64,000 nt of DNA from a virus, in IMG/VR virus record IMGVR_UViG_3300042367_000228, positions 248,001-312,000 of that record, one strand, 5' to 3'. The notes under the pieces were generated by a model. It had not been told where the DNA came from and did no database searches. It worked only from the letters and a program-made list of their open reading frames with translations. Positions 3,710-48,993 of the stretch are shown here, one piece after another (position 1 is the first letter of the stretch; the number at the start of each line of letters is the position of its first letter). Both the position numbers and the translations under genes were made by a program.

Positions 3710-4867
3710 TTATTGCCCTTGTTGAACTTGAATTGGTGCGCATCCTCCGGCTGTAGCACAATTAAAGTTTATTGAGTAGTACTGTTGAGTAGCACCACTC
3801 TGTTGTAGACTTAAGTCTACTGGTTGTCCTGATAAGGTAATATCAGTTATATGATTTGCTGCACCTTGTTGTAATACATCAACATGTTTATTACCACCAG
3901 ATAATTCAATATTAGCATAATAATTTCCACTACCCTTTTGTTGTAAAATTAAACTGTTGTTATTATCAGTTATATTTATAAAAGCACCTTTACTAAACCC
4001 GGCAGTATATGTATCTTGATCTATACTAAGCAAATTAGAATTGCCATTTACTGTTAAGTCAATAAAGTTTACTTGTAAGTTATTGGCTGCAGTTTGATTA
4101 ATAGTAGTAGTGTTAGACGAGCCATTACTGCTGTAATTTACATAATTGTTGTTAGTACCTTTTTGATCAATTGTAATCTTGTTATTGTTTCCTAACTGAT
4201 CTATATATACTTGATTGTCAGTAGTTGATCTAGATGTAAAAGCCGTTACTTTTGCAGTATTAGCAGGAGCGGCATTAAATGAAGATCCACTGCCACCGCA
4301 GCAATATACACTTGGAAACGTAGTCCATGGTAACGTACTTCCTAAGTCAATGCTAGTAGTAGGATCATTTTGATCGTACAAGAATGTTATTTCTGCAATT
4401 TGCATAGAGTTAGCAGCACCTGCGTCTTTAACAATTGGAAACGTTATATTATAATACACGTATGCTTCTGTATTGTTAATAGGGTATACTGGACTAACTG
4501 CAAGTCTATTATTAGGTAATGCAATAAGTTGAGAAGTTATTAACGTCCAACCTCCTGATGTATCATTACTTCCAAATAAACTAAAACTAGCAGGATCTCG
4601 TTCTGGAGAATCATTTGCTGTAGTAAATTGTACTTGACTAATAACTTTACCTTGTGACAGTTTAAGCATAACACCTGCATTAAGTTTATCAAAGTTAAGA
4701 TACTTAGTTCCGGGATTACCGTCAAACGCATTACTAAAGAACTCACCACCTGGACTATTCATACTTGATGGAATATATCCTAACATTAATGGTCTAAGTG
4801 GTACATAGTTAGGAACAGCATCTACATTTGAATACCATAACAACAATATGAAAAATAAAATTCTCAT
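3710..4867 (-). CDS. secreted discoidin-curlin fusion protein
   Basis: A signal peptide (MRILFFILLLWYSNVDA) precedes an F5/8 type C (discoidin)-like domain, about residues 25-170: SSMNSPGGEFFSNAFDG, a TKYLNF segment, then FTTANDSPERDPASFSLFGS. From about residue 210 there are curlin-type repeats rich in N and Q (QLGNNNKITIDQKGTNNNYV, later LLSIDQDTY, LILQQKGSGNY, VDVLQQGAANH). This suggests an amyloid-forming, carbohydrate- or surface-binding extracellular protein. It is the last gene of the csgF-csgG operon and starts in a 4-base overlap with the FecR-domain gene. Confidence 0.75.
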   Translation of the reverse strand: MRILFFILLLWYSNVDAVPNYVPLRPLMLGYIPSSMNSPGGEFFSNAFDGNPGTKYLNFDKLNAGVMLKLSQGKVISQVQFTTANDSPERDPASFSLFGSNDTSGGWTLITSQLIALPNNRLAVSPVYPINNTEAYVYYNITFPIVKDAGAANSMQIAEITFLYDQNDPTTSIDLGSTLPWTTFPSVYCCGGSGSSFNAAPANTAKVTAFTSRSTTDNQVYIDQLGNNNKITIDQKGTNNNYVNYSSNGSSNTTTINQTAANNLQVNFIDLTVNGNSNLLSIDQDTYTAGFSKGAFINITDNNNSLILQQKGSGNYYANIELSGGNKHVDVLQQGAANHITDITLSGQPVDLSLQQSGATQQYYSINFNCATAGGCAPIQVQQGQ

Positions 4868-5949
4868 CGTCTTAACACTCCAGTAGTTTGTGTAATACTT
4901 ATTGTATTACCGCCACTGCTGTCGCCTATTATTGTAGATGCAGCAGTATCATTTTGAATAATAGATATAGCAGTATTAGAAGTATACCCTTGTGTTTTTA
5001 TTTCAGCATAGTGTTCATCTGGGGTTATACGATATGCAGTACCTTTACCTTTTTGTGTACCGTCTGCATTAGGTTGTTCCCACATTACACATACATGCGA
5101 TGTTGGGTCGCAAGGTGCAATAGATTGTATAGTTTCTGCAATCTGTTCTATTCTAGCAGCAATAGTTTCTTGAGTTTTAGCTACTTGATTTGCTAATCGT
5201 CTAGTTGCTTCTTTTTCTAAATCTTCTTGTTCTTCATCTTTCTTTGTTCTAGCTGCTTGTTTAATTGCGTTAACAATTTCTTTTGGCGCAGAAATGATTA
5301 AGTTATTATTGATTTTAGATTCTACCAAACTAATAACTTCCGGAGCAGTTGGCATTGCAGTTCTACTACTAACATAAGTTGCATGAAACGCTTGATCTAA
5401 AGTAACTTCCCCTGCATCATTTGTAACTACAATTTTACCTACTTTACAAATATTCTCTTGTAGTTCGTATTGTTTAACATCTTTTTCATCTTTACAACTT
5501 GGAAGTAGTACAATAAGAGATTGACCAGTTTCATCTACTGTCATAGTAAAGTCAGTACCACGTACTGCAATTGTAGCAGTGGGAGTTTGTATACCTACTT
5601 GCTGTGGATTAGCTTTTGCTATTTGACCACTTGCGTATCTAACAGTACCTAATCCAACTTTTAATGCAAGTTTACCTGCATCTGATTGTTTTGGATCGTA
5701 TACAAAGTCATCTATTACTAATCTACTATTCTCTGTAATTTTAACTTTTGTTTCATCTTTAAATAAAATGTTACTAACACACCCGCCGGTAATGTATGCA
5801 TCCATACTTTCTATAGATGCGCCTTTATCACCTGCAAGTTTTTCTTTGTTACGTTCAATGCTGCATGCAGTGCCTTTAGCGTCTGAAACTGCACCAATTC
5901 CTGCATAAGCATTATTAACAACTAATAATAAAAAAACTAAGAACCACAT
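4864..5949 (-). CDS. secreted FecR-domain protein with curlin-like tail
   Basis: 361 residues: signal peptide (MWFLVFLLLVVNNAYA), then a FecR domain at about residues 20-150 (GACSIERN-like start, ITGGCVSNILFKDETKVKI, SRLVIDDFVYDP, IQTPTATIAVRGTDFTM), a long charged helical middle (KDEEQEDLEKEATRRL), and a C-terminal segment with NTAISIIQNDTAA and GNTISITQTTG that resembles a curlin strand. FecR-domain proteins occur next to CsgG and CHASE2 proteins in bacteria; here the CHASE2 fragment is about 4.5 kb downstream. Coupled to the next gene by ATGA. Confidence 0.75.
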   Translation of the reverse strand: MWFLVFLLLVVNNAYAGIGAVSDAKGTACSIERNKEKLAGDKGASIESMDAYITGGCVSNILFKDETKVKITENSRLVIDDFVYDPKQSDAGKLALKVGLGTVRYASGQIAKANPQQVGIQTPTATIAVRGTDFTMTVDETGQSLIVLLPSCKDEKDVKQYELQENICKVGKIVVTNDAGEVTLDQAFHATYVSSRTAMPTAPEVISLVESKINNNLIISAPKEIVNAIKQAARTKKDEEQEDLEKEATRRLANQVAKTQETIAARIEQIAETIQSIAPCDPTSHVCVMWEQPNADGTQKGKGTAYRITPDEHYAEIKTQGYTSNTAISIIQNDTAASTIIGDSSGGNTISITQTTGVLRR

Positions 5950-5950
5950 A

Positions 5951-6718
5951 TTACCTCGAAACGGCTGTATTTGAATTTACAATACTGCTTGAATTAGTTG
6001 ACCTTACAGTAATTGTATTATGATCTCCAATTGTACTAATATCTATCATAGAATCGTTAGTACCTTGCTGCTGTGTTACAACAGAGTTGTAACTCCCAGT
6101 AAAATCTTGTACTAGATGATGCCCGATACCTCCATCGTCTTGTTCGTTAATGAAACTGTTAAACCCGCCACTTACTGTTGTATCTACTACACCGTTAGTG
6201 CTATTTAATCGTGTTGTAACTTCATTGTTACTGCCATTAATATCAATTGTACTATGTATGCTACCTTTAGTTAAACTTTGTATAACATAGTTTAAATCAC
6301 CAGTAATTGTTTCAGTAACAACATTAGCATTTACTGGAGTACCAAGTCCAATGTTAAGTAACGTTTGATTTTGATTACCTTTAATGATACTAGAATATAT
6401 ATTATTTGCTCCGCTAATATTATATTGTGCCCAGTTAGTATCTCCAGTGTGCGACAATGTTACTTGGTTAGAATTACCCGTAATAGTCGCATAATTTGAT
6501 GAGCTTGCAGCAGCTGGTACAAAAGCTGTAATAGTGTTACTGGAACTATATAACAAAGGATTGTTAAGAGTTGTACCACTAACGTTATTAGCTCCGCCAA
6601 TCTGATCAATAACGATTGTATTTGCATTTCCGACTTGTTCAATGTATACATTGTTTACTCCTGTACTTGCTGCAAACACTGGACTACTTATTAGTAGTAG
6701 TAGTATTAGTTGTTTCAT
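5951..6718 (-). CDS. curlin-repeat (CsgA/CsgB-like) secreted protein
   Basis: Signal peptide (MKQLILLLLISSPVFAAS) followed by repeated curlin-like strands of the N-x5-Q-x-G-x2-N type: VYIEQVGNANTIVIDQIGG, then NSNQVTLSHTGDTN, IIKGNQNQTLLNIG, VVTQQQGTNDSMIDIST and IGDHNTITVRSTN. Such proteins are exported through the CsgG pore and polymerise as surface amyloid. The start codon lies 35 bases inside the csgG-like gene. Repeats are less regular than in enterobacterial CsgA. Confidence 0.8.
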   Translation of the reverse strand: MKQLILLLLISSPVFAASTGVNNVYIEQVGNANTIVIDQIGGANNVSGTTLNNPLLYSSSNTITAFVPAAASSSNYATITGNSNQVTLSHTGDTNWAQYNISGANNIYSSIIKGNQNQTLLNIGLGTPVNANVVTETITGDLNYVIQSLTKGSIHSTIDINGSNNEVTTRLNSTNGVVDTTVSGGFNSFINEQDDGGIGHHLVQDFTGSYNSVVTQQQGTNDSMIDISTIGDHNTITVRSTNSSSIVNSNTAVSR

Positions 6719-7538
6719 TTTTTAGCTCCTGTGGCGCTTCTTTAAAAGCCCAATGACCTTTCTTAGCACCTTCTTTAATAGTTTCGACCACAGCGGCTTG
6801 AATAGCTTTGTTAGTCGCTTTGTTAATACTTTCATTTATACTTCCGCCCACTTCTGTTTCTAATGCTTTAGTATCTGAAGAGAACATTCTTAATACACCG
6901 ACTTTATCCATATAACTTAGTACGGTTTTAGTTACTACAACTGATGTTAGAATTTCACCAGATGTTACTGATACAATTCTTAAACTTACTGTAACAGTAT
7001 CGCTTTGATATTGAGTTTCACCACCTATGCCAAATATCCTTACACCTGCTCCGCCTGTGATTGTATTTGAATCGTAGCCAACAACTGCGCCTTCTGCAAT
7101 AATTCCAGCAAATGTCATAGCTGGTAATGAAGTAGCATCTTTGCCTTGGAACTGTTCGCGTGTTTGGCGAATCATTTGACGCTCTTTAACTAGGTTGTCT
7201 AAGCCAACGCGTTCTAGTACTACAAACCAACGACTATCACCGACTTCTTTTAATGACTTGATTAAATAGTTTTCAGCACCTTGAGTAATTGCAGAACTTA
7301 AACTAGCAATGTTTGGTATTGATTTGCGTTGTCCAGTTTTATCCGTAAAACCGTATACTGCAATTGGAATAGGTCCACCTTGCGGCGGAGCTAAATAATT
7401 TTCTTCTTTTTTTAAATACGGTGTATTGTCAACGATTGGATCGTCAAACTGTTCACCTGTTATAAGTTTTTCAATTGAACTACTTGCTGCACATCCTTGT
7501 AGTAGTAGAATAATTGCTAATAATAGTAATTTTTTCAT
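6684..7538 (-). CDS. csgG: CsgG-like curli secretion pore lipoprotein
   Basis: 284 residues, close to E. coli CsgG (277). A lipoprotein signal with lipobox LQGC (Cys16) is followed by the CsgG core: PIAVYGFTDKTGQRKS, a SAITQGAENYLIKSL helix, WFVVLERVGLDNLVKERQ, then GIIAEGAVVGYDSNTITGG, TVTVSLRIVSVTSGEIL and the ending AVVETIKEGAKKGHW. CsgG is the outer-membrane nonameric channel that exports curlin subunits. Adjacent to csgF and curlin genes, so the assignment is firm; whether it exports fibres or acts as a pore during infection is open. Confidence 0.9.
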   Translation of the reverse strand: MKKLLLLAIILLLQGCAASSSIEKLITGEQFDDPIVDNTPYLKKEENYLAPPQGGPIPIAVYGFTDKTGQRKSIPNIASLSSAITQGAENYLIKSLKEVGDSRWFVVLERVGLDNLVKERQMIRQTREQFQGKDATSLPAMTFAGIIAEGAVVGYDSNTITGGAGVRIFGIGGETQYQSDTVTVSLRIVSVTSGEILTSVVVTKTVLSYMDKVGVLRMFSSDTKALETEVGGSINESINKATNKAIQAAVVETIKEGAKKGHWAFKEAPQELKNETTNTTTTNK

Positions 7539-7545
7539 AGTTACC

Positions 7546-8022
7546 TCAAAAATAGAAAGTACCGGCCGGTACTTTCATTGTTGTTGTTTGATTTGGATTA
7601 CTATTACTTGTAATATTGATAATAATTAGTCCATTATCTGTACCTGATCCTAATCCCCATGTAACCGTGTTTCCACCTAAGTCTGGAATATTTCCACAAG
7701 TTGCACCTGGGATAGTACATGTAGACCCTTCGGCAAACATGCTATCAGTAAGTTGTTTTGCTAGTTGTGAATAGATCCTTGATTCTAAGTTTGCTAAGAA
7801 TTTAGCCGCTGGCGTATTAGCTGCTGCTGATGCTGCTTTAGCTGCTAATGAATCTGCAAGTGATTTGTTTTTTTCAACACCTTGTTGTTCTAACTGTTGG
7901 ATAGTTAGAATGTGATTGCTATACCCAATTCCGCTAAATGATGGACTATTAAATGAGTGTTGGAGTTCAGCAGAAAATGCTGATGATGATACTAGTAGTA
8001 ATAATACTAAGATTTTGTTCAC
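7546..8022 (-). CDS. csgF: CsgF-like curli assembly protein
   Basis: Starts at GTG 8022, with AAGGAG and a GA-rich tract upstream. 158 residues: signal peptide (MNKILVLLLLVSSSAFSAE), then HSFNSPSFSGIGYSN, matching the conserved N-terminal segment of CsgF that inserts into the CsgG pore, a helical Q/A-rich middle, and a C-terminal beta part ending TMKVPAGTFYF as in the family. First gene of the operon csgF-csgG-curlin-FecR-discoidin/curlin. Confidence 0.85.
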   Translation of the reverse strand: MNKILVLLLLVSSSAFSAELQHSFNSPSFSGIGYSNHILTIQQLEQQGVEKNKSLADSLAAKAASAAANTPAAKFLANLESRIYSQLAKQLTDSMFAEGSTCTIPGATCGNIPDLGGNTVTWGLGSGTDNGLIIINITSNSNPNQTTTMKVPAGTFYF

Positions 8023-11500: not shown

Positions 11501-12178
11501 CTAAATCTCAGGGAATAAACACTCATGAACAAAGCGAGTAACGTCTTCTTCGTTTAAGCCAAGTGCAGCCATTACTCGCGGTGTATGCGGGATTTGTTTT
11601 TGTTGTATTGCATAGTAGTTTTGTGCTTCTACAGTGCTTTTAACTGTGTTATTAGTGCTTGCTACGTTAAATAAGTAGTGTTTGCTAGTAAGATCTATAA
11701 TGCTGTGTATTTGCGCTATTTCACTGTCTTTTTGAATATTGCTTGCTGCAATCATATGTGGGGAAAAGATCTTTTGTCCCCACTCTGGAATATCTCTAAC
11801 TTTATCCCATTTTAACAACCCAGCCTCTGATCCAAAAAAATCTATCATTGGATGATTAGAATTACCAGCCGGACTGTAGTCATGGAAAAAACCAGTTATC
11901 TTATTGCGACCTGCAACAACATCACAACCAAAGATAGGTGCAGGATTATGGATATGTGGGAAAATGCAGCAATGCATCATCCACAATCCGTTTGAATCAC
12001 TTGCGTCTACTATATTAAGATGTGCGCGACGATAAGACTTACTAGACCAAATTCTATTAATCCAACCGTTATAATTAAAACGATCAATACCAGGTTCTGC
12101 TATTTCAGTTCCTGAACTGTTAAATCGATCTATAAGTAAGTCTTGTATTTTAACTAACTGAGATTTTAGATCACTCAT
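11501..12178 (-). CDS. ferredoxin-dependent bilin reductase (PcyX/PcyA/PebS type)
   Basis: 225 residues with the FDBR pattern: RAHLNIVDASD, LWMMHCCIFPHIHNPAPIFG then CDVVAGRNKITGFFHDYSP, and a C-terminal YYAIQQKQIPHTPRVMAALG. Asp86 in FGCDVVAG matches the conserved catalytic Asp of PcyA. These enzymes reduce biliverdin to open-chain bilin pigments using ferredoxin. It overlaps the heme oxygenase gene by 4 bases, forming a two-step heme-to-bilin cassette. The short length and marine phage setting fit PcyX, known from uncultured ocean viruses, but PcyA/PebS cannot be excluded by eye. Confidence 0.8.
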   Translation of the reverse strand: MSDLKSQLVKIQDLLIDRFNSSGTEIAEPGIDRFNYNGWINRIWSSKSYRRAHLNIVDASDSNGLWMMHCCIFPHIHNPAPIFGCDVVAGRNKITGFFHDYSPAGNSNHPMIDFFGSEAGLLKWDKVRDIPEWGQKIFSPHMIAASNIQKDSEIAQIHSIIDLTSKHYLFNVASTNNTVKSTVEAQNYYAIQQKQIPHTPRVMAALGLNEEDVTRFVHECLFPEI

Positions 12179-12708
12179 GCTAACTCTTCAAATAACTTTG
12201 TAGCAAAACTAAAACAAATTAATGCTTCTTCTGCTAGTGAATCATCTAACTTAGCACGTATTGCGTCTTTAAGTTCATTGGTATTTTCAAACTTATAGAA
12301 ATTACCTAAACCGGGAACTTTTTTAGCAATCATTTGACCGCCATACAAATCTCCCATATGCCTGACATAAATATGAGCCATTAGTTTCTTAGGATCGTCT
12401 TTAATTGTTAAAAGATGTCTCAAATACTCGTGAGTAGATTCTAATATTTTAAAATTTGGTAAATCTGGAACATCGGCTTCTAACTCAAGAAGATCTTGTT
12501 TAATTTTTTCAGCACGTTTAATGCCAGGTAGATCATCTAGTATACCTGCATCATTTGCAAATGCTTCTAAGGTTGCGTATGCAAGTTCTTGGTTAAGCAA
12601 ATAATGTGCGTACTGTTCTTTACTAATATTTCCAGAGAAAATTAGGTTAACAAATGGTTGAGATTCTGCTAGTTTATGTGCTTCTGCAGTTAGTTCTTTT
12701 AAACTCAT
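12175..12708 (-). CDS. heme oxygenase
   Basis: 177 residues. Heme oxygenase features: the N-terminal helix with the likely proximal His11 (TAEAHKLAESQPFVNLIFSG), NQELAYATLEAFANDAG, and the distal helix HIYVRHMGDLYGGQMIAKKV with the conserved GDLxGGQ. It opens heme to biliverdin, CO and Fe2+. Sits between clpS and the bilin reductase with ATGA overlaps on both sides. Confidence 0.88.
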   Translation of the reverse strand: MSLKELTAEAHKLAESQPFVNLIFSGNISKEQYAHYLLNQELAYATLEAFANDAGILDDLPGIKRAEKIKQDLLELEADVPDLPNFKILESTHEYLRHLLTIKDDPKKLMAHIYVRHMGDLYGGQMIAKKVPGLGNFYKFENTNELKDAIRAKLDDSLAEEALICFSFATKLFEELA

Positions 12709-13010
12709 AGATCTTCTTCCATTTTAATTTGTAAAGGATACCCGGCTGATCTAGCAAGTGTAGTTGATTCAACTGCCTTAATTTCTGCAATTTCAAAACT
12801 ATACACACCTGCAATGCCAGATCCAGTTTCGTGTACTTGCATAGTAATATTACCTGCAGAATTAGGATCATGTTTAAACACATCCATTAATAAAGTTACT
12901 ACAAAGTCAACAGGAGTAACGTCGTCATTAATAAGAATAACTTTCCAACGCTTTGGTTCTGAAACCTTAATTCTAACTTTTTCGTCTACTGCTACATCTG
13001 TATTTGCCAT
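12705..13010 (-). CDS. clpS: ClpS-like ATP-dependent Clp protease adaptor
   Basis: 101 residues, nearly the length of E. coli ClpS (106). It has the family signatures WKVILINDDVTPVDFVVTLL (the NDDxTP substrate-binding loop), MQVHETGSGIAGVYSFEIAE and a C-terminal YPLQIKMEED. ClpS delivers N-degron substrates to host ClpAP, so the phage could redirect host proteolysis. In operon with hsp20 (8 bases upstream) and heme oxygenase (overlap). Start at ATG 13010 behind AGGAG. Confidence 0.88.
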   Translation of the reverse strand: MANTDVAVDEKVRIKVSEPKRWKVILINDDVTPVDFVVTLLMDVFKHDPNSAGNITMQVHETGSGIAGVYSFEIAEIKAVESTTLARSAGYPLQIKMEEDL

Positions 13011-13018
13011 TTGGGCTC

Positions 13019-13465
13019 CTATTTAATTTGAATTTGTCGGGGTTGTAATGCAGTTGGCATTAATCGTTCAATACCAATTGTAAGCATACCGTTTTCTACT
13101 TTAGCATCTTTAACTTCCATATATTCTGCAAGCGTAAAGGTTTGTTCAAAATCTCTAAATGCTAATCCTCGATGTAAGAATTCTTTTCTTTCATTTAGAT
13201 CAGGATTGTATTTTTCGTTATTACGTTTTTTACCTGTTATAACGAGTAAATCTTGATTAACTTCGATGTTAATATCGTACTTAGTAAAACCAGCAACTGC
13301 TACTTCTATTTCGTAGTAAGTATCGTTGTATTTTACAATGTTGTGTGGTGGATAATTGTTAGCTGCGGTTGCTGTTAATACGTTTGAAAATAAAGTATCA
13401 AACCCTATTAGTGCTTTATTTAATAATGCTAATTCTGCATTGCTTATTGTTTTTAATTGTGACAT
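13019..13465 (-). CDS. Hsp20 small heat-shock protein
   Basis: The start is taken as ATG 13465, with AAGGAG 8 bases upstream; the frame is open farther upstream but lacks a start signal. 148 residues with the alpha-crystallin domain: NIVKYNDTYYEIEVAVAGF, YDINIEVNQDLLVITGKKR, FLHRGLAFRDFEQTFTL and VENGMLTIGIERL with the conserved G-x-L. Similar to IbpA/B and to Hsp20 proteins of cyanophages and pelagiphages. A strong sigma70-type promoter and a leader shared with dnaK lie upstream. Confidence 0.9.
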   Translation of the reverse strand: MSQLKTISNAELALLNKALIGFDTLFSNVLTATAANNYPPHNIVKYNDTYYEIEVAVAGFTKYDINIEVNQDLLVITGKKRNNEKYNPDLNERKEFLHRGLAFRDFEQTFTLAEYMEVKDAKVENGMLTIGIERLMPTALQPRQIQIK

Positions 13466-13470
13466 AAAAA

Positions 13471-13514
13471 TCTCCTTATTGTAAGCGAGGACTATATAAA
13501 CCCTTATGGCGTTT
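13471..13514 (-). promoter_or_regulatory. hsp20 leader element shared with dnaK
   Basis: Two blocks of the hsp20 5' leader recur in the dnaK leader (16655-16721): AAACGCCATAAGGGTTTATA (here 13495-13514) and CTCGCTTACAATAAGGAGA (13471-13489), the second including the ribosome binding site. In hsp20 a TCCT just upstream could pair with AGGA of the ribosome binding site. Confidence 0.5.
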
Positions 13515-13524
13515 ATTTGCGTAT

Positions 13525-13563
13525 ATAATAACACAGCTGTTAACAAATGTCAACAGCTGTGTT
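13525..13563 (-). promoter_or_regulatory. sigma70-type promoter within an inverted repeat, hsp20
   Basis: TTGACA (13548-13553) and TATTAT (13525-13530) spaced 17 bases on the minus strand. A perfect 12-bp inverted repeat (13530-13541 with 13552-13563, AACACAGCTGTT type) covers the -35 and the spacer. It may act as the 3' end hairpin of dnaK, an operator, or both. Confidence 0.65.
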
Positions 13564-13574
13564 TAAATTGTGTG

Positions 13575-14807
13575 TTACTCTTTTGGTTCTTCTGGAGTTA
13601 CTTCAGTAAAATCTGCACTAACTGTTTCTTCAGTACTCGTTGCTTCAGTAGCAGCAGCTGCAGCAGCGTTGGCTGCATCGGCTTCTTGTTTTTTAGTAAA
13701 TACCGGAGCTGCAGCTTCAAACAGTTTATTAGTTGCTTCAGTAATAGGTTCAACTTCTTCACCGTCTCTTGCAGTTTCTAATGCTAGTAACGCGTCTTCA
13801 AACGCAGTACGTTCTTCTTCAGTTAATTGATCTTTTACTTCGTCATAATCTTTCTTCAATGAATGAGATTGTGCTTCTGCACTGTTACGTGCTTCAATTA
13901 ATGACTTAGCTTTAGCATCTGCTTCTGCATTTTCCTCAGCTTCTTTAACCATACGTTCAATCTCAGCATCTGTTAGTCCTGAATCAGATTTAATAGTAAT
14001 TTTGTTCTCTTTGCCGGTAGTTTTATCTTTAGCACTTACATGCATAATACCGTTAGCATCAATATCAAAAGTTACTTCAATCTGTGGTTGACCGCGTGGA
14101 GCTGCGTCAATCCCTTCTAAGTTAAACTCACCAAGTTGTTTATTGTAACGATACAATTCACGTTCACCTTGACCTACTTTAATAGTAACTGCAGGTTGAT
14201 TATCTTCTGCTGTTGAGAATGTCTGGCTTGCTTTAGTTGGAATGGTTGTATTTTTCTGAATTAACTTAGTAAATACCCCGCCCATTGTTTCAATACCTAA
14301 ACTTAATGGAGTAACGTCAAGTAACAATACGTCAGTTTTATCACCTGCTAATACTGCACCTTGGATAGCAGCACCTGCAGCAACAGCTTCATCTGGATTA
14401 ACGTCTTTACGTGGTGCTTTTCCAAAGAATGCTTCAACAGCTTCTTGTACTTTAGGCATACGTGTTTGACCACCTACTAAAATAACTTCGTCAATATCTG
14501 ACAAACTAACTTTAGCATCAGCAATTGCAATTTTACATGGTTCGATTGAACGTTGTACTAAATCGTCTACTAATGCTTCAAACTTAGCACGAGTTACTGT
14601 TACGTTTAAGTGTTTCGGACCTGTGGCATCTGCAGTAACATATGGTAAGTTAACATTTGTTTGTGCAGTGCTTGACAATTCAATTTTAGCTTTTTCAGCA
14701 GCTTCTTTTAAACGTTGCAACGCCATTGTATCAGATTTAAGATCAACACCTGAGTCTTTCTTAAATTCGTCAATCAAATGATCCATTAATCGTTGGTCAA
14801 AGTCTTC
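13575..14807 (-). CDS. dnaK: DnaK chaperone, exon 2 (C-terminal 410 residues)
   Basis: Second exon of an intron-split dnaK. The protein resumes at GAAGAC (14807), giving [20 protein letters not shown] directly after the LGG that ends exon 1; together 641 residues, against 638 in E. coli. It includes the rest of the nucleotide-binding domain ([35 protein letters not shown]), the linker [16 protein letters not shown], the substrate-binding domain ([17 protein letters not shown]) and the helical lid. The tail lacks the exact EEVKDKK end and finishes EVTPEEPKE. The ATG at 14786 is an internal methionine, not a start. Confidence 0.92.
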
Positions 14808-14866
14808 CAGTTATGTTATCGTTAAGCTCTTTATCTTAACTTCTTATACTTTCATATAAGCTCAGA

Positions 14867-15694
14867 CTATATCTTAATTATAGACTTGCAATTATCAAAG
14901 TGCCATCGTTTCATATTTGACGAATCTCCAATTTTATTGCAATGTGGACAAGTTACTTGTTGTCGTTTTTTATTTTGTTTATATCTTTTTCCAGCAGCTA
15001 TACCAACTACCTCTTTAGAAATTAATCTAGGGTCATCTTTATTAACTGTAAATTTATTACCATTAATATCTTTAACAACTATCCGTCCTGCTGAAGTTGA
15101 TGTATACTGCTTTGATAAAAATTTTTCATCAGTAACTGAAACCATAATAATTTTACCAGTTTCATTAAACACTTTTGTTAACCCTTTTGTAATGCCTACT
15201 AACGATGTATCGTTTTTATTGTCAACTACTACAGTTTCGTTAGTTACGGTTTTCATAACTCGTCTACCGGTTGTGTGACCTGCATATCTATCAGGGTTTG
15301 CATCAAATGTACTTTTTGAAATTTTTACCACTGTACCTAATAAATTATCTTTAGCTACTACTTTATCTATAGAGCATTTACGTATTCGTTCAATACCAAA
15401 GGATGAATGTGTAATTACTCCACGACCACCTTCTGTTAAATTATAAACGTCGTCTCGTTTAATAAAGATCGAATCTACTAATTTAGCTTCATATTCATAT
15501 GCATCATGTTTTGAATTGCAAAATTCTAATATGTCGCGTTTGAAATTAGTTTTTCCATATTTCTTTATTGCTTGTTTTAATAATTTTCCAGACCCTATAT
15601 AGCCGTCGTTAATATTAGTAGTTTCATGTACACCAATATAAATGGTGTTATTAATTAAATTAGTTGTTTTGTAAACAAAATATATCTTATCCAT
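14867..15694 (-). CDS. intron-encoded GIY-YIG homing endonuclease
   Basis: Start at ATG 15694 behind AGGAGGGG. 275 residues: GIY-YIG domain (KIYFVYKTTNLINNTIYIGV, then YIGSGKLLKQAIKKYGKTNF), a middle with NUMOD-like repeats (KVFNETGKIIMVSVTDEKF, IVVKDINGNKFTVNKDDPR), and a C-terminal zinc-finger-like CPHCNKIGDSSNMKRWHFDNC. The same tail ends the endonuclease at 1433-2035. Its stop codon overlaps the catalytic core of the intron, tying the two together. An internal late promoter precedes it, as in T4 intron endonucleases. Confidence 0.88.
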   Translation of the reverse strand: MDKIYFVYKTTNLINNTIYIGVHETTNINDGYIGSGKLLKQAIKKYGKTNFKRDILEFCNSKHDAYEYEAKLVDSIFIKRDDVYNLTEGGRGVITHSSFGIERIRKCSIDKVVAKDNLLGTVVKISKSTFDANPDRYAGHTTGRRVMKTVTNETVVVDNKNDTSLVGITKGLTKVFNETGKIIMVSVTDEKFLSKQYTSTSAGRIVVKDINGNKFTVNKDDPRLISKEVVGIAAGKRYKQNKKRQQVTCPHCNKIGDSSNMKRWHFDNCKSIIKI

Positions 15695-15714
15695 ATCTTC
15701 CCCTCCTATAATTT

Positions 15715-15722
15715 TATTTATC
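15715..15722 (-). promoter_or_regulatory. late promoter inside the dnaK intron
   Basis: GATAAATA on the minus strand, 20 bases before the endonuclease start. T4 intron endonucleases such as I-TevI also have late promoters inside the intron. Confidence 0.5.
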
Positions 15723-15955
15723 ATAAGATTAGAAGATCTATAATTTTCCGCACTCTTGGGTCTTTACTGTCCTATCTGGACTCCATGACCTAGTCGTTGA
15801 ACCTTGAACTTATTCCTAAGTCCCTTGGCTGCTGATTTCCCAATCTATTCATTTTTTAACGTTCGCACTTATCATTACTAATTATGCTGTAGTATGAATA
15901 GCTCTAAGGGGTTCCCAGCAATTCACGGAATTTTTATACGGGAGGCTAATACTTA

Positions 15956-16721
<766 letters not shown>

Positions 16722-39029: not shown

Positions 39030-40016
39030 ATGAAAATACAAGATTTAATGGAAGGATATATTGCTGATTCACTTCCAGATTTAATTAATCACGCAAAATC
39101 GTTAATTATAATGTATACGAAAACATTACCTGAAATAGTACACAAATATGATTTCTCAGTTAATGATCCATATAATCCAACTGAACTTGGATTAGCAAAT
39201 AGAGATATCAATGCATGTAAATTACAAGTAGGTAGTGTTAGATCAGTCTGGTTTACTAACAATTATTTGTCAGTTACTAAAAACAGAGCAGGTACCGGAA
39301 TGCAAGGCGGCAAATCTGCACGCGGTTTGAAAAATGCGTTAGTTACCTTATCAGAAATTCCAGAACTACGTAAAGTACACGGTTTAAATCGTTTAGCGCA
39401 TTTAGATGTAAACATTAATCCAAATAATAAAGTTCAAGCAACTGTATCTCAGCGTGTAAAAGGAACTGCACCAAAAGAAGCTGATATTCAAACATATGGT
39501 GAATTAATGAGGCATCTTGAAAATCTTTTACCAGACGTTATAAAAGCTATTGCTAAAGTGGCTAAGCCGCAGGATTTAGAATCTAGTTTTTTAAATGCAG
39601 AAGAAGTATTCGGAATAGGTGTTAGACTTGAAAATGCTATTGATAGATGGGAAAGTGTAAAAGGTACTATTCCAAAAAAATACGAAGGCGGAACTAGTTA
39701 TAAAAAACAAGGTGACGCATTAGTAGCTACACACAAAAATAAAGGTGCAGACCTAGGTAAAAGTGATATAATGAAACCGGCTGAAAAGCCTGTTAAGAAA
39801 CATGATACACATTCTCAAAATATGAGTGCTGCTCAAGACGCAATTAATCAAGGGTTTGAAGTACTTAAAAAGAATGGTATTAAAGATCATGAACTACATG
39901 CAATTAGACAAAAAGTTCAAAGAAGTGATAATCAACTAATGGCGTTAATGCAAGTATTCCAAGAATTTGGAATCAATCCAAATCCGTTAATGGAAGCTTG
40001 GTTAAAAACATATTAA
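39030..40016 (+). CDS. hypothetical protein with capsid-targeting-like N-terminus (328 aa)
   Basis: 328 residues from ATG 39030 (AGGAG 6 bases upstream). MKIQDLMEG carries the shared N-terminal motif with L-M-E at residues 6-8. The body is basic and helical (GMQGGKSARGLKNALVTLSE, NALxRLAHLDVNINPNNKVQ, AKPQDLESSFLNAEEVFGIG) with a lysine-rich linker (KPAEKPVKKHDTHSQNMSAA). No enzyme motif. Possibly an internal head protein. Ends at a bidirectional terminator. Confidence 0.7.
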   Translation: MKIQDLMEGYIADSLPDLINHAKSLIIMYTKTLPEIVHKYDFSVNDPYNPTELGLANRDINACKLQVGSVRSVWFTNNYLSVTKNRAGTGMQGGKSARGLKNALVTLSEIPELRKVHGLNRLAHLDVNINPNNKVQATVSQRVKGTAPKEADIQTYGELMRHLENLLPDVIKAIAKVAKPQDLESSFLNAEEVFGIGVRLENAIDRWESVKGTIPKKYEGGTSYKKQGDALVATHKNKGADLGKSDIMKPAEKPVKKHDTHSQNMSAAQDAINQGFEVLKKNGIKDHELHAIRQKVQRSDNQLMALMQVFQEFGINPNPLMEAWLKTY

Positions 40017-40017
40017 G

Positions 40018-40044
40018 AAAAAAGGGCTAATTAGCCCTTTTTTT
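40018..40044. terminator. bidirectional rho-independent terminator
   Basis: Perfect palindrome GGGCTAATTAGCCC (40024-40037) flanked by A-run on the left and T-run on the right, so it ends the plus gene at 40016 and the minus pqqA-like gene, whose stop codon it touches. Confidence 0.9.
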
Positions 40045-40117
40045 AACGATTGTGAATATACATAGTAACTTCAAAGCCGAAACGTAAATCAACATATGTT
40101 GGTGTTTCCCATTTCAT
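40043..40117 (-). CDS. pqqA: PqqA-like pyrroloquinoline quinone precursor peptide
   Basis: A 24-residue frame from ATG 40117: MKWETPTYVDLRFGFEVTMY then IHNR. It matches the PqqA pattern, with Glu16 and Tyr20 in E-V-T-x-Y, the two residues that PqqE cross-links to make PQQ, and W3, P6, R12 and G14 at the usual places; K. pneumoniae PqqA (23 aa) is very similar. The ribosome binding site AAGGAGGTGAT is complementary to the whole 3' end of 16S rRNA, an unusually strong signal. The gene follows the PAAR gene by 16 bases and is closed by a terminator. No pqqB-E genes are in the window, so host enzymes would be needed. Confidence 0.85.
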   Translation of the reverse strand: MKWETPTYVDLRFGFEVTMYIHNR

Positions 40118-40133
40118 AACTATCACCTCCTTT

Positions 40134-40811
40134 TTATTTTGGTTTTATCGTAATTGTTATTGTACTTTCTGAACTAGTATCTTTACCTTTGTTTAAGGTA
40201 CCGCCTGAATCTTTTATTTTAAATCCTATAGCTGCATGTTGAGTACCATTTTTAGATCCATCTGGATAATACGCTAACAACGATACATTAGCTGATGGAA
40301 CACTTTGATTAGCTTTAACATTAGCTTTTCCTAATTTAAGTCTTCCGACTTTTGGTAATTTTGATATAATAACTGCGCTAATGCTGTTATTATCAATATC
40401 TTTAAATTTAAAATCAGATTGAGTAAAATGTTTAACAACTCTTTTAGTTATAGTAAACGCATTAGCGATTGCAGTCGGTGGTTCATTAGCAGAAACCGAC
40501 GATGTGCTATCGCCGGCATACACGTTATCACTGCCTGACGAAATTGTTCCAGCATCTGCTTTATCAGTATCTCTTGCAATCGGTATATTATTAACAAACA
40601 CAGTTGCAGATCCAGCTTTAATAGTTTCTGTGTGATTTACACACTTGTCACCTACTTTATGAGTATGAACTTTTATAGCATCTCCTTTTCTACAAACACC
40701 AATGTTATTAACAAATACATTAGTTGAACATTTGTCGGTGTTAGTAGTCGCAGTGCATAAGTGACCTGTTGATACTGTATCTTTACCTTTACCTCTTGCA
40801 ACTCGTGGCAT
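40134..40811 (-). CDS. PAAR spike-tip protein with cadherin-like extension
   Basis: 225 residues. The N-terminal 95 residues follow the PAAR pattern: MPRVARGKGKDTVSTGHLCT, STNVFVNNIGVCRKGDAIKV-HTH, AGSATVFVNNIPIARDTDKA, DAGTISSGSDNVYAG, with Cys and His that can bind the tip metal. PAAR proteins sharpen the gp5/VgrG spike of contractile tails. The C-terminal half (NEPPTAIANAFTITKRVVKH, FKFKDIDNNSISAVIISKLP, GFKIKDSGGTLNKGKD) resembles a cadherin-like/VCBS repeat, an unusual extension for a spike tip. A consensus late promoter precedes it. Confidence 0.82.
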   Translation of the reverse strand: MPRVARGKGKDTVSTGHLCTATTNTDKCSTNVFVNNIGVCRKGDAIKVHTHKVGDKCVNHTETIKAGSATVFVNNIPIARDTDKADAGTISSGSDNVYAGDSTSSVSANEPPTAIANAFTITKRVVKHFTQSDFKFKDIDNNSISAVIISKLPKVGRLKLGKANVKANQSVPSANVSLLAYYPDGSKNGTQHAAIGFKIKDSGGTLNKGKDTSSESTITITIKPK

Positions 40812-40829
40812 AATATTATCCTAAAATAA

Positions 40830-40837
40830 TATTTATA
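40830..40837 (-). promoter_or_regulatory. T4-type late promoter
   Basis: Exact TATAAATA on the minus strand, 18 bases before the PAAR gene; would also express the pqqA-like gene late. Confidence 0.7.
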
Positions 40838-45168: not shown

Positions 45169-45703
45169 TTATGTAGTTCCAGTTTATTATTTTCCATTGA
45201 TTTTCTAAGTACTTTTTCTTGTCTGATTGATAGTCTAACGCCCATGAATGTTCCCACCAATCAACTAACAATACAATGTCTTTTTTAATAGCATGATTAG
45301 TTATTGTTTTGATCTTGCCATCTTTAGCAAGATAGACCCAACCACTGCCTTGTATGCCCATTGCTACTTTTAAAAACTCTTCTTTAAACTTATCAAAAGT
45401 TTTATAATGTGTTTCAATTAAATCTAAAACTTTGCCAACTGGTTTGTTTAAGTTGCCAGTTGACTCTTGATATTGTTGGAATAAGATATTGTGTAAAAAT
45501 ACACCTGCTTCATTAAACACAGGATCACCTTCACCTGCATTATAACGCTTTGCGTATGTTTTAGCAAGACGTTCATAATGATAATCTAATGTTGCTTTTG
45601 ATATAGCAGGACTTAACTCATCCATTCCGTATGGTAGAGGATCTATTTTTAATGATGCAGGTTTACCTTCAGTTATGAATTGCTTAATAAAACTATAGCT
45701 CAT
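45152..45703 (-). CDS. Fe/Mn superoxide dismutase-like protein with N-terminal tag
   Basis: 183 residues. The four metal ligands of Fe/Mn SOD can be aligned: His42 (LDYHYERLAKTY), His71 (GVFLHNILFQQY), Asp148 and His152 (LLVDWWEHSWALDYQSDKKK). The usual HH after the first ligand (GKHHxTY) is replaced by LA, so the outer gate residue His30 of E. coli SodB is missing. Ahead of the SOD start lies MSYSFIKQFITEGKP, which resembles T4 capsid-targeting sequences (MKTYQEFIAEA in IPIII) with I-T-E at 10-12. It may be a virion-packaged SOD. Lies between nrdA and small genes. Confidence 0.75.
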   Translation of the reverse strand: MSYSFIKQFITEGKPASLKIDPLPYGMDELSPAISKATLDYHYERLAKTYAKRYNAGEGDPVFNEAGVFLHNILFQQYQESTGNLNKPVGKVLDLIETHYKTFDKFKEEFLKVAMGIQGSGWVYLAKDGKIKTITNHAIKKDIVLLVDWWEHSWALDYQSDKKKYLENQWKIINWNYINETVS

Positions 45704-46662
45704 AGCTTACAGGCCTCGCAGGATTCTTCATCGTCTTCAATAATTGCACTAGGTAAATCAACTTCGGCTTCTTCTTTACTACCTGTTTTATCAATTAAAC
45801 TATAGTAGAAAGTTTTCAAACCCCAATAGTGACCTAACATTAAGTTTTTAGCAATTAGTGTAGTTGGGACTTTTCTACCTTCAAAGTGTCTAGGTGAATA
45901 AAATGTATTTGTGCTAATACTTTGATCTACGTATGCAGCCAATACAGCAGCAGTTTTCAAATAACCTACACAATCAGTTTGTTCCCACATAAGTTGATAT
46001 TTGTTTTTCAATTTATGATATTCCGGAACTACTTGTGTAAGTGAACCAGCTTTTGATTCTTTAACTTGAATAAGTTGCATTGGCATTTCAATTCCATTAG
46101 TTGAATTAATTACAACTGAACTTGATTCTACTGGAGCTATAGCCATTTGAGTCGCATTTCGTACACCGTATTTTTTCATTTCAACACGCAATGGTTCCCA
46201 ATCAAGTTCTGGTGTAAAATCAGTCAATTCATTAACACCGTCTGCACGTAGTTCCCATGGAAATATACCTTGTCCGTATCGAGTTTTATCACTATCTAAA
46301 CATGGTCCACGCTCCTTAGCCAGTTCAACCGATATTTCAGTAGTATAAAATGCTAAATGTTCCATCCAGCTTTTAACTTCAGCAAGCATATCTGCGTCTC
46401 CGTATTTAAAATTGCGTTTAGCTGCCCAGTATGCTAAATTTGTAACTCCAATTCCTAATGGTCGAATTTCATCATTACTTAGTTTACTGTGGATTGACAG
46501 ATAATCTTGGTAATCTAAAATATTGTTTAAACTGCGGTGAAGAATACGACAAGCTCTGCGCATATCTTCCGGATTTCTAAAACTCCCCCAATTAATACTG
46601 CCTAAGGTGCATAAGGCTATTTTTGGAACTTTACGCACACATTCTTTTTTAATTATTTTCAT
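45700..46662 (-). CDS. nrdA: ribonucleotide reductase class Ia alpha subunit, C-terminal piece
   Basis: 320 residues. After a 13-residue unrelated start (MKIIKKECVRKVP), NrdA resumes at KIALCTLGSINWGSF with the active-site Cys corresponding to E. coli Cys462. Other NrdA motifs follow: RPLGIGVTNLAYWAAKRNF, APVESSSVVINSTNGIEMP, LKTFYYSLIDKTG with the radical-transfer Tyr pair, and the C-terminal SCEACKL redox cysteines. The N-terminal half is encoded at 47464-48993. The first residues resemble the beginning of split-intein C-halves, but the catalytic end of such an intein is absent. Confidence 0.9.
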   Translation of the reverse strand: MKIIKKECVRKVPKIALCTLGSINWGSFRNPEDMRRACRILHRSLNNILDYQDYLSIHSKLSNDEIRPLGIGVTNLAYWAAKRNFKYGDADMLAEVKSWMEHLAFYTTEISVELAKERGPCLDSDKTRYGQGIFPWELRADGVNELTDFTPELDWEPLRVEMKKYGVRNATQMAIAPVESSSVVINSTNGIEMPMQLIQVKESKAGSLTQVVPEYHKLKNKYQLMWEQTDCVGYLKTAAVLAAYVDQSISTNTFYSPRHFEGRKVPTTLIAKNLMLGHYWGLKTFYYSLIDKTGSKEEAEVDLPSAIIEDDEESCEACKL

Positions 46663-47425
46663 GATTTATTGTTCTTCCTATACGCCAATTTGTATTTTCT
46701 AAAAGATACTCATTAATAGACGATGAGTCAATCCTAATATTAGTGTACCCATCTGTTATCCATCTCCATTTTGAAGACTGTATTGATAACAAACTTTTTT
46801 GTGTTGGGCTTCTATAATGCGGGTTGTATTTAACTTGTTCAGTGGCAGTTAATGTAGCGTTAACTAAGTTAATCAAATCTGTATGATTTTTAATTCCTCG
46901 ATTAGATATCAATCTACTGCTAATAGATAGCTCAGATTTTAATACAGAATCAATTTCATTTCGAAGTAAATAACTACCGTATTTGAAATTTTCATGTATA
47001 TAATTAACTATAGTGTTAATAATATCGATAGCTGTAATATCAGGCCGAGCATTTCCGTTATTCATACCTGCACTTAGCTTACTTCTATTTTTACCCCATT
47101 CTATTAATTGTTTTTTAGAATATCGTTCTTTTGTGTTGCCGCCATCACCGCCACGGGTCATATTGTACCCGTAGCTAAACGTATCAAGCAAGTCTATATA
47201 ATATATTTCTTTTGATTTTGCATCAGATTGTGTACTACATTCATCTAATTTTTCAGTTATAATAGTATTTTCACCATATTTTCTAATTGCACGATGAAAA
47301 TATGTATCAGAACCGTTTCTACTATCTTGAATGTGTTCGTCTAATCGAACGTTAATATTTTTTTCAGTGTATCCTATGTATTTTTTGTTATTAATAGTGT
47401 GACAATATATATTATAAGTTTTCAT
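46649..47425 (-). CDS. GIY-YIG homing endonuclease between nrdA pieces
   Basis: 258 residues: NIYCHTINNKKYIGYTEKNI (GIY-YIG), RLDEHIQDSRNGSDTYFHRA-IRKYGE, a Glu in YIDLLDTFSYGYNMTRGGDG, and basic DNA-binding segments behind. The 3' end overlaps the start of the C-terminal nrdA piece by 14 bases. A similar arrangement (mobE in split nrdA) is known in Aeromonas phage Aeh1. Own late-type promoter and GAGGAAG ribosome binding site. Confidence 0.88.
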   Translation of the reverse strand: MKTYNIYCHTINNKKYIGYTEKNINVRLDEHIQDSRNGSDTYFHRAIRKYGENTIITEKLDECSTQSDAKSKEIYYIDLLDTFSYGYNMTRGGDGGNTKERYSKKQLIEWGKNRSKLSAGMNNGNARPDITAIDIINTIVNYIHENFKYGSYLLRNEIDSVLKSELSISSRLISNRGIKNHTDLINLVNATLTATEQVKYNPHYRSPTQKSLLSIQSSKWRWITDGYTNIRIDSSSINEYLLENTNWRIGRTINHENN

Positions 47426-47445
47426 AAATATCTTCCTCTTGCTTG

Positions 47446-47453
47446 TATTTAGC
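47446..47453 (-). promoter_or_regulatory. late-type promoter
   Basis: GCTAAATA on the minus strand, 20 bases before the endonuclease start, just after the stop of the N-terminal nrdA piece. Confidence 0.45.
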
Positions 47454-47463
47454 AGAGATACTA

Positions 47464-48993
47464 CTACCCACTTATTAAAAGATTATCAATATCGTCATCT
47501 TCAGACAACTCTCGAACTTTCTTTTTCTCACCTGATTTTAATAATACCGTGTGTTCTCCTGCTAATGTTACTTCCTCTCCAGTGTCAAGTGTGAGTTTAA
47601 ATCCACCTTCATCGGATAACGAATTAAACGGTGCAGTTGGTAAAAGTATTTCGCAGCATAAATTACTTTGATAAATTGTATGCCATAACGGATCAAATGG
47701 TCCTTGCTTAATTACGTTATCTATAAAGACTAAGTAGATGCGCCCGGTGTCAGTTCGTTCTTTTAGGAGTCCTCCTTTGAATACTTCTTCCGCAGACATG
47801 GTCTTCTTCCGAACTCCTGTATTTTTTTCATACTGTAGGTACAGTTTTTCAAAGAGAGCTGTATCAGTGTAAAACGCTTCGTATAAGTCTGGAACTTCAT
47901 TAGGATCAAAAAATGTTATGTTTTCTTTGTTTTTAAATCTACGCCAAAAGAACGCGCTTAATACAACGCTGTAATCTAAATGACGCACCCGTGTTTCATC
48001 TGTGCCTTGATTGTTTTTAAGTACAATTAAGTCGTCGAACTGATAATGCCAAATCGGATATGTTACAGTAGCACTAGCATTTCTAATACCACCTTGTGAA
48101 CAGCAACGCAAGTCACCAAACCATTTCTTTAAAAATGGAATCATACCTGTGTGCATAATTTCACCACCGCGTATAGGACTTCCTAGTGCGCGTACACGAC
48201 CAATTTCTAAACCTATGCCAGCACGTTTGCTAGCATATTTTGCCATCATCTCGCCACTAGCAAATATAGAATCCAAATCGTCATCACTGCGTATGAGAAC
48301 GCAGCTGCTGAATTGTTTAGTTGGAGTTCCGAGCCCAGCAAGAACGGGTGTAGCAAGAGTAAATAAGCCATCGGATGCAGCATTATAATATTCCTTAATA
48401 TATTTCATTCTAGCTGCATTTGGTTCTTCCTTATGGAACACAGTTGCAGCTGCAATCATATACCTAACTTGTGGAGTTTCGTAAATGTCTTTAGTAGATC
48501 GATTACGGACTAAGTATTTCTCAATAAGCTGTTCAATTGCAGCATATGAGTAAGTTTCATCTTTTGAATGATCAAGCATGTCATTCATTTTGTTCCATTC
48601 TTCAGTTGAATACCACTCTAATAACTCTGGTGTGTATAATCCAACTTCGATGTTCTTTTTAACTATTGTAAATAGATGCGGTGGCTCGTATTGGCCGTAT
48701 ACATCTTTGCGGAGCATAGACAAACGCTGTTTGCCTGCAACGTATTGATAATTTGTATGACCTACATCTGGGTTGGCGTCAACATCAATTAAGTTAACGA
48801 TTGCTCGCAGTGTAATTTCGTCAATTTCAGATGTAGTAATATTATCGTAAAATTGTGGCTGGCTTTTAATTTCGATCATTGATTGACTAACATCGGCAAT
48901 TCCACTGCAAATCTTTGCAATCTGCGCCTGCCATTTGTCAATTGTTAGTTCTACTTTAGTGCCATTTCTTTTTGTAACTGTTATTTTATTCAT
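47464..48993 (-). CDS. nrdA: ribonucleotide reductase class Ia alpha subunit, N-terminal piece with intein-like tail
   Basis: 509 residues: ATP-cone (MNKITVTKRNGTKVELTIDK), FSSCVLIRSDDDLDSI (Cys of E. coli Cys225), and QSNLCCEILLPTAPFNSLSD containing the Asn/Cys/Glu of the active site (437/439/441). After DEGG the NrdA sequence is replaced by 45 residues: FKLTLDTGEEVTLAGEHTVL then LKSGEKKKVRELSEDDDI. These match block B of gp41-1-type split inteins (YKITLEDGKEIxxxxEHLF). Block A with the first splicing Cys is absent, so normal protein splicing is unlikely. Confidence 0.9.
   Translation of the reverse strand: MNKITVTKRNGTKVELTIDKWQAQIAKICSGIADVSQSMIEIKSQPQFYDNITTSEIDEITLRAIVNLIDVDANPDVGHTNYQYVAGKQRLSMLRKDVYGQYEPPHLFTIVKKNIEVGLYTPELLEWYSTEEWNKMNDMLDHSKDETYSYAAIEQLIEKYLVRNRSTKDIYETPQVRYMIAAATVFHKEEPNAARMKYIKEYYNAASDGLFTLATPVLAGLGTPTKQFSSCVLIRSDDDLDSIFASGEMMAKYASKRAGIGLEIGRVRALGSPIRGGEIMHTGMIPFLKKWFGDLRCCSQGGIRNASATVTYPIWHYQFDDLIVLKNNQGTDETRVRHLDYSVVLSAFFWRRFKNKENITFFDPNEVPDLYEAFYTDTALFEKLYLQYEKNTGVRKKTMSAEEVFKGGLLKERTDTGRIYLVFIDNVIKQGPFDPLWHTIYQSNLCCEILLPTAPFNSLSDEGGFKLTLDTGEEVTLAGEHTVLLKSGEKKKVRELSEDDDIDNLLISG

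Follow-up and report, generated by a model that had tools for sequence, protein, structure and literature searches.

PqqE, together with PqqD, joins a glutamate and a tyrosine of the peptide PqqA, and the peptide is consumed on the way to PQQ. The bacterial pqqA genes closest to the one described here (TIGR02107 / PF08042) belong to Cycloclasticus and to methanotrophs among the Gammaproteobacteria; they encode a peptide of the form MKWETPxYxDLRFGFEVTMYIYNR, identical to ours at 21-22 of 24 positions; pqqB lies nearby in most of these bacterial loci, whereas the phage genes stand alone and in unrelated contexts. By analogy, a phage pqqA resembles cyanophage psbA, which encodes the photosystem II D1 protein, in that each would supply just the consumed part of a host energy pathway. 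This likeness is drawn from general knowledge and involves no homology: the D1 protein turns over, whereas the PqqA peptide is destroyed to yield a cofactor.

Phage-borne pqqA has been known since 2020, when the Lake Baikal methylotroph phage VP_266 was proposed to support methanol dehydrogenase in infection by this means (PMC7678222). VP_266 itself encodes a methanol dehydrogenase, whereas the 372-kb jumbo phage studied here has neither methanol dehydrogenase nor pmoC (PMC7678222 for VP_266). In 2026, pqqA was also listed among phosphorus-cycle AMGs (PMC13188868). The pmoC-phages described by Chen et al. (2020, PMC7674155) are large phages that infect freshwater methanotrophs, and a sister of our phage that carries both pmoC and pqqA (G001) is colinear with it; our phage differs from the pmoC-phages in the absence of pmoC. 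The text of that paper makes no mention of pqq. In the open-access papers that could be searched, we came across neither an account of the breadth of phage pqqA nor one of its presence in cultured methylophages or pmoC-type phages. What appears to be new is the breadth of phage pqqA and its pairing with pmoC.

The pqqA gene and its expression signals

The window, that is, the whole 64,000-base stretch analysed, comprises bases 248001-312000 of a 372,016-base IMG/VR virus record (G000). The features of the locus, in window coordinates, are as follows.

39030..40016, plus strand: convergent gene for a 328-aa product without Pfam match, function unknown; lineage marker
40016..40042, no strand assigned: intrinsic terminator, made up of a AAGGGCTAATTAGCCCTT hairpin and T-runs for either direction, identified from sequence and conserved in relatives
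40043..40117, minus strand: pqqA, 24-codon PQQ precursor peptide gene encoding MKWETPTYVDLRFGFEVTMYIHNR plus TAA (PF08042, TIGR02107 and relatives)
40122..40132, minus strand: Shine-Dalgarno sequence AAGGAGGTGAT, a perfect 11-nt complement to the 16S rRNA 3' end
40134..40811, minus strand: PAAR-motif protein (spike tip) gene (Pfam PF05488, E=1.7e-6; synteny in 12 relatives)
40830..40837, minus strand: putative late-type promoter TATAAATA, an octamer enriched at a fixed position before gene starts

The 24-codon frame that the initial annotation had read as pqqA is real. It lies on the minus strand, which that annotation left unsaid, with the ATG at 40117-40115, the R24 codon at 40048-40046 and the TAA at 40045-40043; the plus-strand reading of 40043-40117 is meaningless and contains a stop. 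W3, P6, R12, G14, E16, V17, T18 and Y20 are all there as it had listed them, including the E16-x3-Y20 pair that becomes PQQ. The profile check that it had proposed places the peptide far above the curated cut-offs of both Pfam PF08042 (E=4.7e-11; 42.8 bits vs a cut-off of 21.1) and the NCBIfam equivalog TIGR02107 (E=2.3e-11; 43.2 bits vs 20). This is the only PqqA match in the whole 372,016-base record. The R-x-G-x-E-V-T-x-Y DNA pattern of the PqqA core has a single occurrence in the window, against none in any of 100 shuffled versions; together with the E-values, this shows that the frame is no product of chance. By every sequence test applied, the frame is a pqqA gene. As an AMG it is a gene of cellular metabolism within a true phage genome (372 kb, PAAR and other phage genes, synteny with sister phages), and its bacterial homologues are clear. 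PHROGs holds no matching PqqA family, which is likely part of the reason that phage pqqA has been overlooked.

The surrounding signals bear out what had been claimed of them. The "near-perfect" ribosome binding site proves to be perfect over the 11 nt of AAGGAGGTGAT, which ends 4 bases before the ATG (8 bases from GGAGG to ATG). Its duplex with the anti-Shine-Dalgarno (-12.9 kcal/mol) is unequalled among the record's 338 ORFs of at least 90 aa, and the longest match to the 11-mer elsewhere in the record, over the same ORFs, is 7 nt. This comparison is conservative because the start sites of the compared ORFs were picked for their best Shine-Dalgarno sequence. The predicted terminator is found as a GC hairpin and T-run directly 3' of the pqqA stop and is common to pqqA and the convergent gene. 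The PAAR gene lies directly upstream, 16 bases from pqqA, and the two are presumably cotranscribed. The octamer TATAAATA, proposed as a late promoter, is found 26 b upstream of the PAAR start; of its 37 copies in the phage, 12 fall within the 15-45 b that precede a gene start on the same strand, a position taken on average by 4.7% of octamers of the same composition. Its overlapping variants ATAAATAT and TAAATATA are likewise enriched before gene starts, and with both results a T4-type late promoter is credible.

An extreme Shine-Dalgarno sequence would also suit a titrating peptide, a decoy that occupies PqqD/PqqE or upsets PQQ synthesis by its abundance and so stops host periplasmic oxidation or a PQQ-linked defence. 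Such a decoy could do without the reacting residues, yet the E and Y that become PQQ are invariant along with the rest of the substrate core, and the presence of pmoC or a PQQ dehydrogenase beside pqqA in other phages points to support rather than shutdown. We therefore consider inhibition very unlikely and favor a peptide that serves as a genuine precursor.

Several other genes of this phage deserve mention. A heme oxygenase gene (PF01126) adjoins one for a ferredoxin-dependent bilin reductase (PF05996) at window 11501-12708 (minus strand), a bilin-synthesis pair in a probable methanotroph phage. About 1.2 kb of DNA with a GIY-YIG-like homing-endonuclease ORF separates dnaK into ORFs of 231 and 403 aa (window 13575-16648, minus strand); the interruption is probably an intron, although no Rfam intron reached the gathering score. 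The ribonucleotide reductase large subunit gene (window 45700-48993, minus strand) is interrupted by an insertion, either intein-like or an intron, in which an endonuclease-like ORF lies; in G001 the gene is one 771-aa ORF. Inspection of the sequence also indicates a chaperone/protease set (Clp ATPase, DnaJ, ClpP, GroES-like, ClpS, Hsp20 and DnaK) at G000:C1:175002-178176, 221406-221987 and 235408-235713 and at window 12705-16648, as well as QueE-like and QueD-like proteins (G000:C1:151041-151883 and 192907-193440), which suggest 7-deazaguanine DNA modification; queE seems to be interrupted by an endonuclease ORF.

Conservation and breadth among phages

The order PAAR, pqqA, terminator, convergent gene recurs in 12 other IMG/VR loci, one of which (L277) is identical to the window locus. 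In the remaining syntenic relatives the PAAR protein has fallen to 34-42% identity and the convergent gene product to 32-50% (87% in one short piece); despite this divergence PqqA keeps 20-23 of its 24 residues, and a GGAG-type site precedes the pqqA ATG in all 12. E16 and Y20, whose loss in related phages the initial annotation would have counted against its reading, are kept without exception in relatives. When relatives were fetched through the convergent gene, irrespective of pqqA, the search of related genomes that had been suggested returned 21 loci, 14 of them with pqqA in the same slot. The slot is empty in the other seven (three groups), and in the closest pqqA-less group PAAR comes right after the terminator; no PqqA was found elsewhere in four searched records of empty-slot relatives, these records being fragments. 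This pattern of filled and empty slots makes pqqA a discrete, optional cassette, helpful rather than essential.

Phage pqqA is under purifying selection, as shown by pN/pS values of 0.11-0.39 across 15 pqqA communities; the window family, with six distinct sequences only, has a value of 0.36. The close identity of the window peptide to bacterial PqqA and the empty slot in some relatives are features that a functionless passenger, host pqqA captured recently, would also display. Passenger DNA would hardly be under such selection, however, nor would it retain promoter, Shine-Dalgarno sequence and terminator while its neighbors fall to 32-50% identity, or recur in dozens of unrelated contexts. 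Recent, functionless capture is thus scarcely probable, and a functional gene is the reading that we retain.

This recurrence is extensive. A first degenerate PqqA pattern found at least 120 IMG/VR stretches, and 119 among the matches listed are short stand-alone PqqA frames. A second scan set no condition on the codons for E, T and Y; the three residues were encoded in 120 of 120 loci, with synonymous codon variation (34 of the 120 being new relative to the earlier scan; 109 distinct DNA cores), and a third, for the D-[LIFM]-RFGFEVTMYI type, returned 84 stretches. Lone pqqA is thereby present at no fewer than about 240 IMG/VR loci in 44 shared-gene communities, 24 of them with at least two members; the figure of 44, in which 20 singletons are counted, is approximate, and single-linkage of contexts merged nearly all. 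Of the Venkman-type loci fetched via their YqaJ recombinase, 34 have enough downstream sequence, and pqqA is present in 31 of these; no pqqA was found beside distant YqaJ homologues. pqqA is a common phage gene, no one-off.

Bacterial contamination is excluded as a general explanation, since pqqB-E genes lie near none of 241 viral pqqA loci while pqqB lies near 98 of 120 bacterial ones. By tblastn, the whole window record contains no pqqB-E and hence no complete PQQ biosynthesis cluster; PqqE was absent from 20 larger viral records, and PqqD from the window record and from the 9 viral records searched. Lacking their own pqqB-E, these phages depend on the PqqB-E of the host, and the reliance on host genes put forward initially holds.

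Among GenBank phages, tblastn matched almost only methylophages (Melnitz in four genomes, P19250A, MEP401, MEP402, Venkman and MEP301); a metagenomic phage genome, Manatee Spring, was the one other match. The cultured phages named are the isolates that matched, so that the list gives no frequency among sequenced methylophages. The pqqA of all seven phage records tested passed the Pfam cut-off, and PqqD was found in none of those seven. Like the window phage, Melnitz, Venkman, P19250A, MEP301, MEP401 and MEP402 have one stand-alone pqqA each, but they are smaller, other phages of Methylophilales with a peptide of the type MWTxP...EMRFGFEVTMYV. In these cultured phages pqqA is unannotated, or hidden under an antisense or overlapping "hypothetical protein", and screening the papers on Melnitz, MEP301 and MEP401/402 by term brought up no report of it. 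Curli pores have been reported for Melnitz and for pelagimyophages; the window holds a curli-like cluster at 3710-8022 (minus strand), with CsgG (PF03783, E=2.5e-48), curli-subunit-like repeat proteins and a FecR-like protein. One record filed as a phage, "Acinetobacter phage MD-2021a" (L007, CAKLQF020000010.1), was rejected: it contains pqqABCDE as a bacterial operon, along with ppk and fur, and looks like host chromosome.

Host and proposed role of phage PqqA

Bacterial genomes encoding the DLRFGFEVTMYI type are, among the matches listed, overwhelmingly Methylococcaceae, with some Cycloclasticus and Paraburkholderia. The window peptide is closest to that of Cycloclasticus (22/24) and matches the common Methylococcaceae form at 21/24; its signature MKWETP...DLRFGFEVTMYI is the Methylococcaceae one. 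Two pqqA-bearing sister jumbo phages, G001 (372,173 b) and G002 (171,592 b), carry pmoC (E ~1e-122) adjoining clpP (L485, G001:C1:249671-250387, and L484, respectively). A comparison over 40 kb shows G001 to be colinear with the window phage: of 40 ORFs, 30 have a match, and identity averages about 70%. The PmoC of G001 is 92% identical to one from a genome in the family of Methylobacter psychrophilus. No PF04896 match was found in G000 in the same search that detected pmoC in both sisters, and no methanol dehydrogenase was found in the window phage. The window phage is a pmoC-less relative of the pmoC-phages, not a member. The methanotroph-like pmoC of its closest colinear sister and the Methylococcaceae-type peptide make a gammaproteobacterial methanotroph the most likely host. 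The marine methylotroph suggested initially gives way to this assignment, as the window peptide matches the M-W-T-K-P types at only about 15/24.

Based on the above data, we propose that a functional phage PqqA feeds the host PqqB-E late in infection and sustains the PQQ-dependent methanol dehydrogenase, a reading to which we assign a probability of about 0.8. It entails that the peptide is translated and accepted by host PqqD/PqqE, that PQQ runs short in infection and that phage pqqA brings a fitness benefit, all of which we infer. Of the initial annotation, gene identity, late-type promoter and strong ribosome site are borne out, and the marine methylotroph host falls away.

In the proposed mechanism, phage PqqA would be made on ribosomes, and its Glu16 and Tyr20 would be turned into PQQ. 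PqqA is the sole component of the pathway spent at one molecule per cofactor, whereas PqqB, C, D and E are catalysts (or a chaperone) and persist once host mRNA synthesis stops; a 72-bp pqqA alone could then suffice for the phage as an economical remedy. The strongest Shine-Dalgarno sequence of the genome, combined with late expression, would ensure a steady feed of PqqA to host PqqB-E. A methanol dehydrogenase so supplied with cofactor would deliver electrons and formaldehyde while virions are produced, and the pmoC of the sister phages would back the preceding step, from methane to methanol.

Published data are consistent with such a scheme. In the methanotroph Methylosinus OB3b, RNA levels are 11,857-13,927 for pqqA, which was unannotated and so located by hand, vs 161-372 for pqqB, C/D and E, and pqqA RNA lies near the level of mxaF (13,760-15,313) (PMC3615186). 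With pqqA RNA so far above that of the other genes, a phage that halts host transcription would exhaust PqqA first. In pmoC-phages, pmoC is expressed alongside late structural genes (PMC7674155). Since the hosts have a pqqA of their own, we can only infer that a further one from the phage is needed. In Acetobacter, raising pqqAB alone increased PQQ by 29% only, as opposed to eightfold for pqqABCDE (PMC7936290), which indicates that, in the absence of infection, PQQ synthesis is not in every case limited by its precursor.

PQQ also serves other dehydrogenases, and both pmoC and methanol dehydrogenase are missing from the window phage itself; the cofactor might thus be destined for another quinoprotein, for redox protection or for release as a public good. 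We regard such uses as unlikely, as methanol dehydrogenase is the chief PQQ user in methylotrophs and methanotrophs, to which the known or inferred hosts belong, and as other pqqA phages carry pmoC or a PQQ alcohol dehydrogenase. The latter is encoded on a pqqA-bearing 72-kb viral contig (608 bits; L482/L483, G010:C1:34049-35731), which in this respect resembles VP_266 (PMC7678222). The carriers of pqqA, namely the phages of Methylophilales isolates, the pmoC sister and this contig, are phages of PQQ users, and support of methanol dehydrogenase remains our preferred reading. With somewhat less confidence, we think it probable that pqqA has been overlooked as a general gene of phages in the C1 world, where it would be to methylotrophs and methanotrophs what psbA is to the hosts of cyanophages. 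On this view unrelated phages have repeatedly captured the consumable precursor alone, which keeps host methanol oxidation going and, with pmoC in methanotroph jumbo phages, supports both methane and methanol oxidation.

Methane and methanol flux is largely controlled by methanotrophs and methylotrophs, many of which are killed by phages. Should the PQQ precursor be a routine contribution of phages, cells under infection may oxidize methanol until the end. A 24-codon gene missed by annotation would then be among the commonest metabolic genes of methylotroph and methanotroph phages. This is directly testable, as pqqA phages of cultured OM43 and LD28 strains exist. Lastly, very short genes, here of the RiPP-precursor type, may serve the metabolic takeover of a host by phages.
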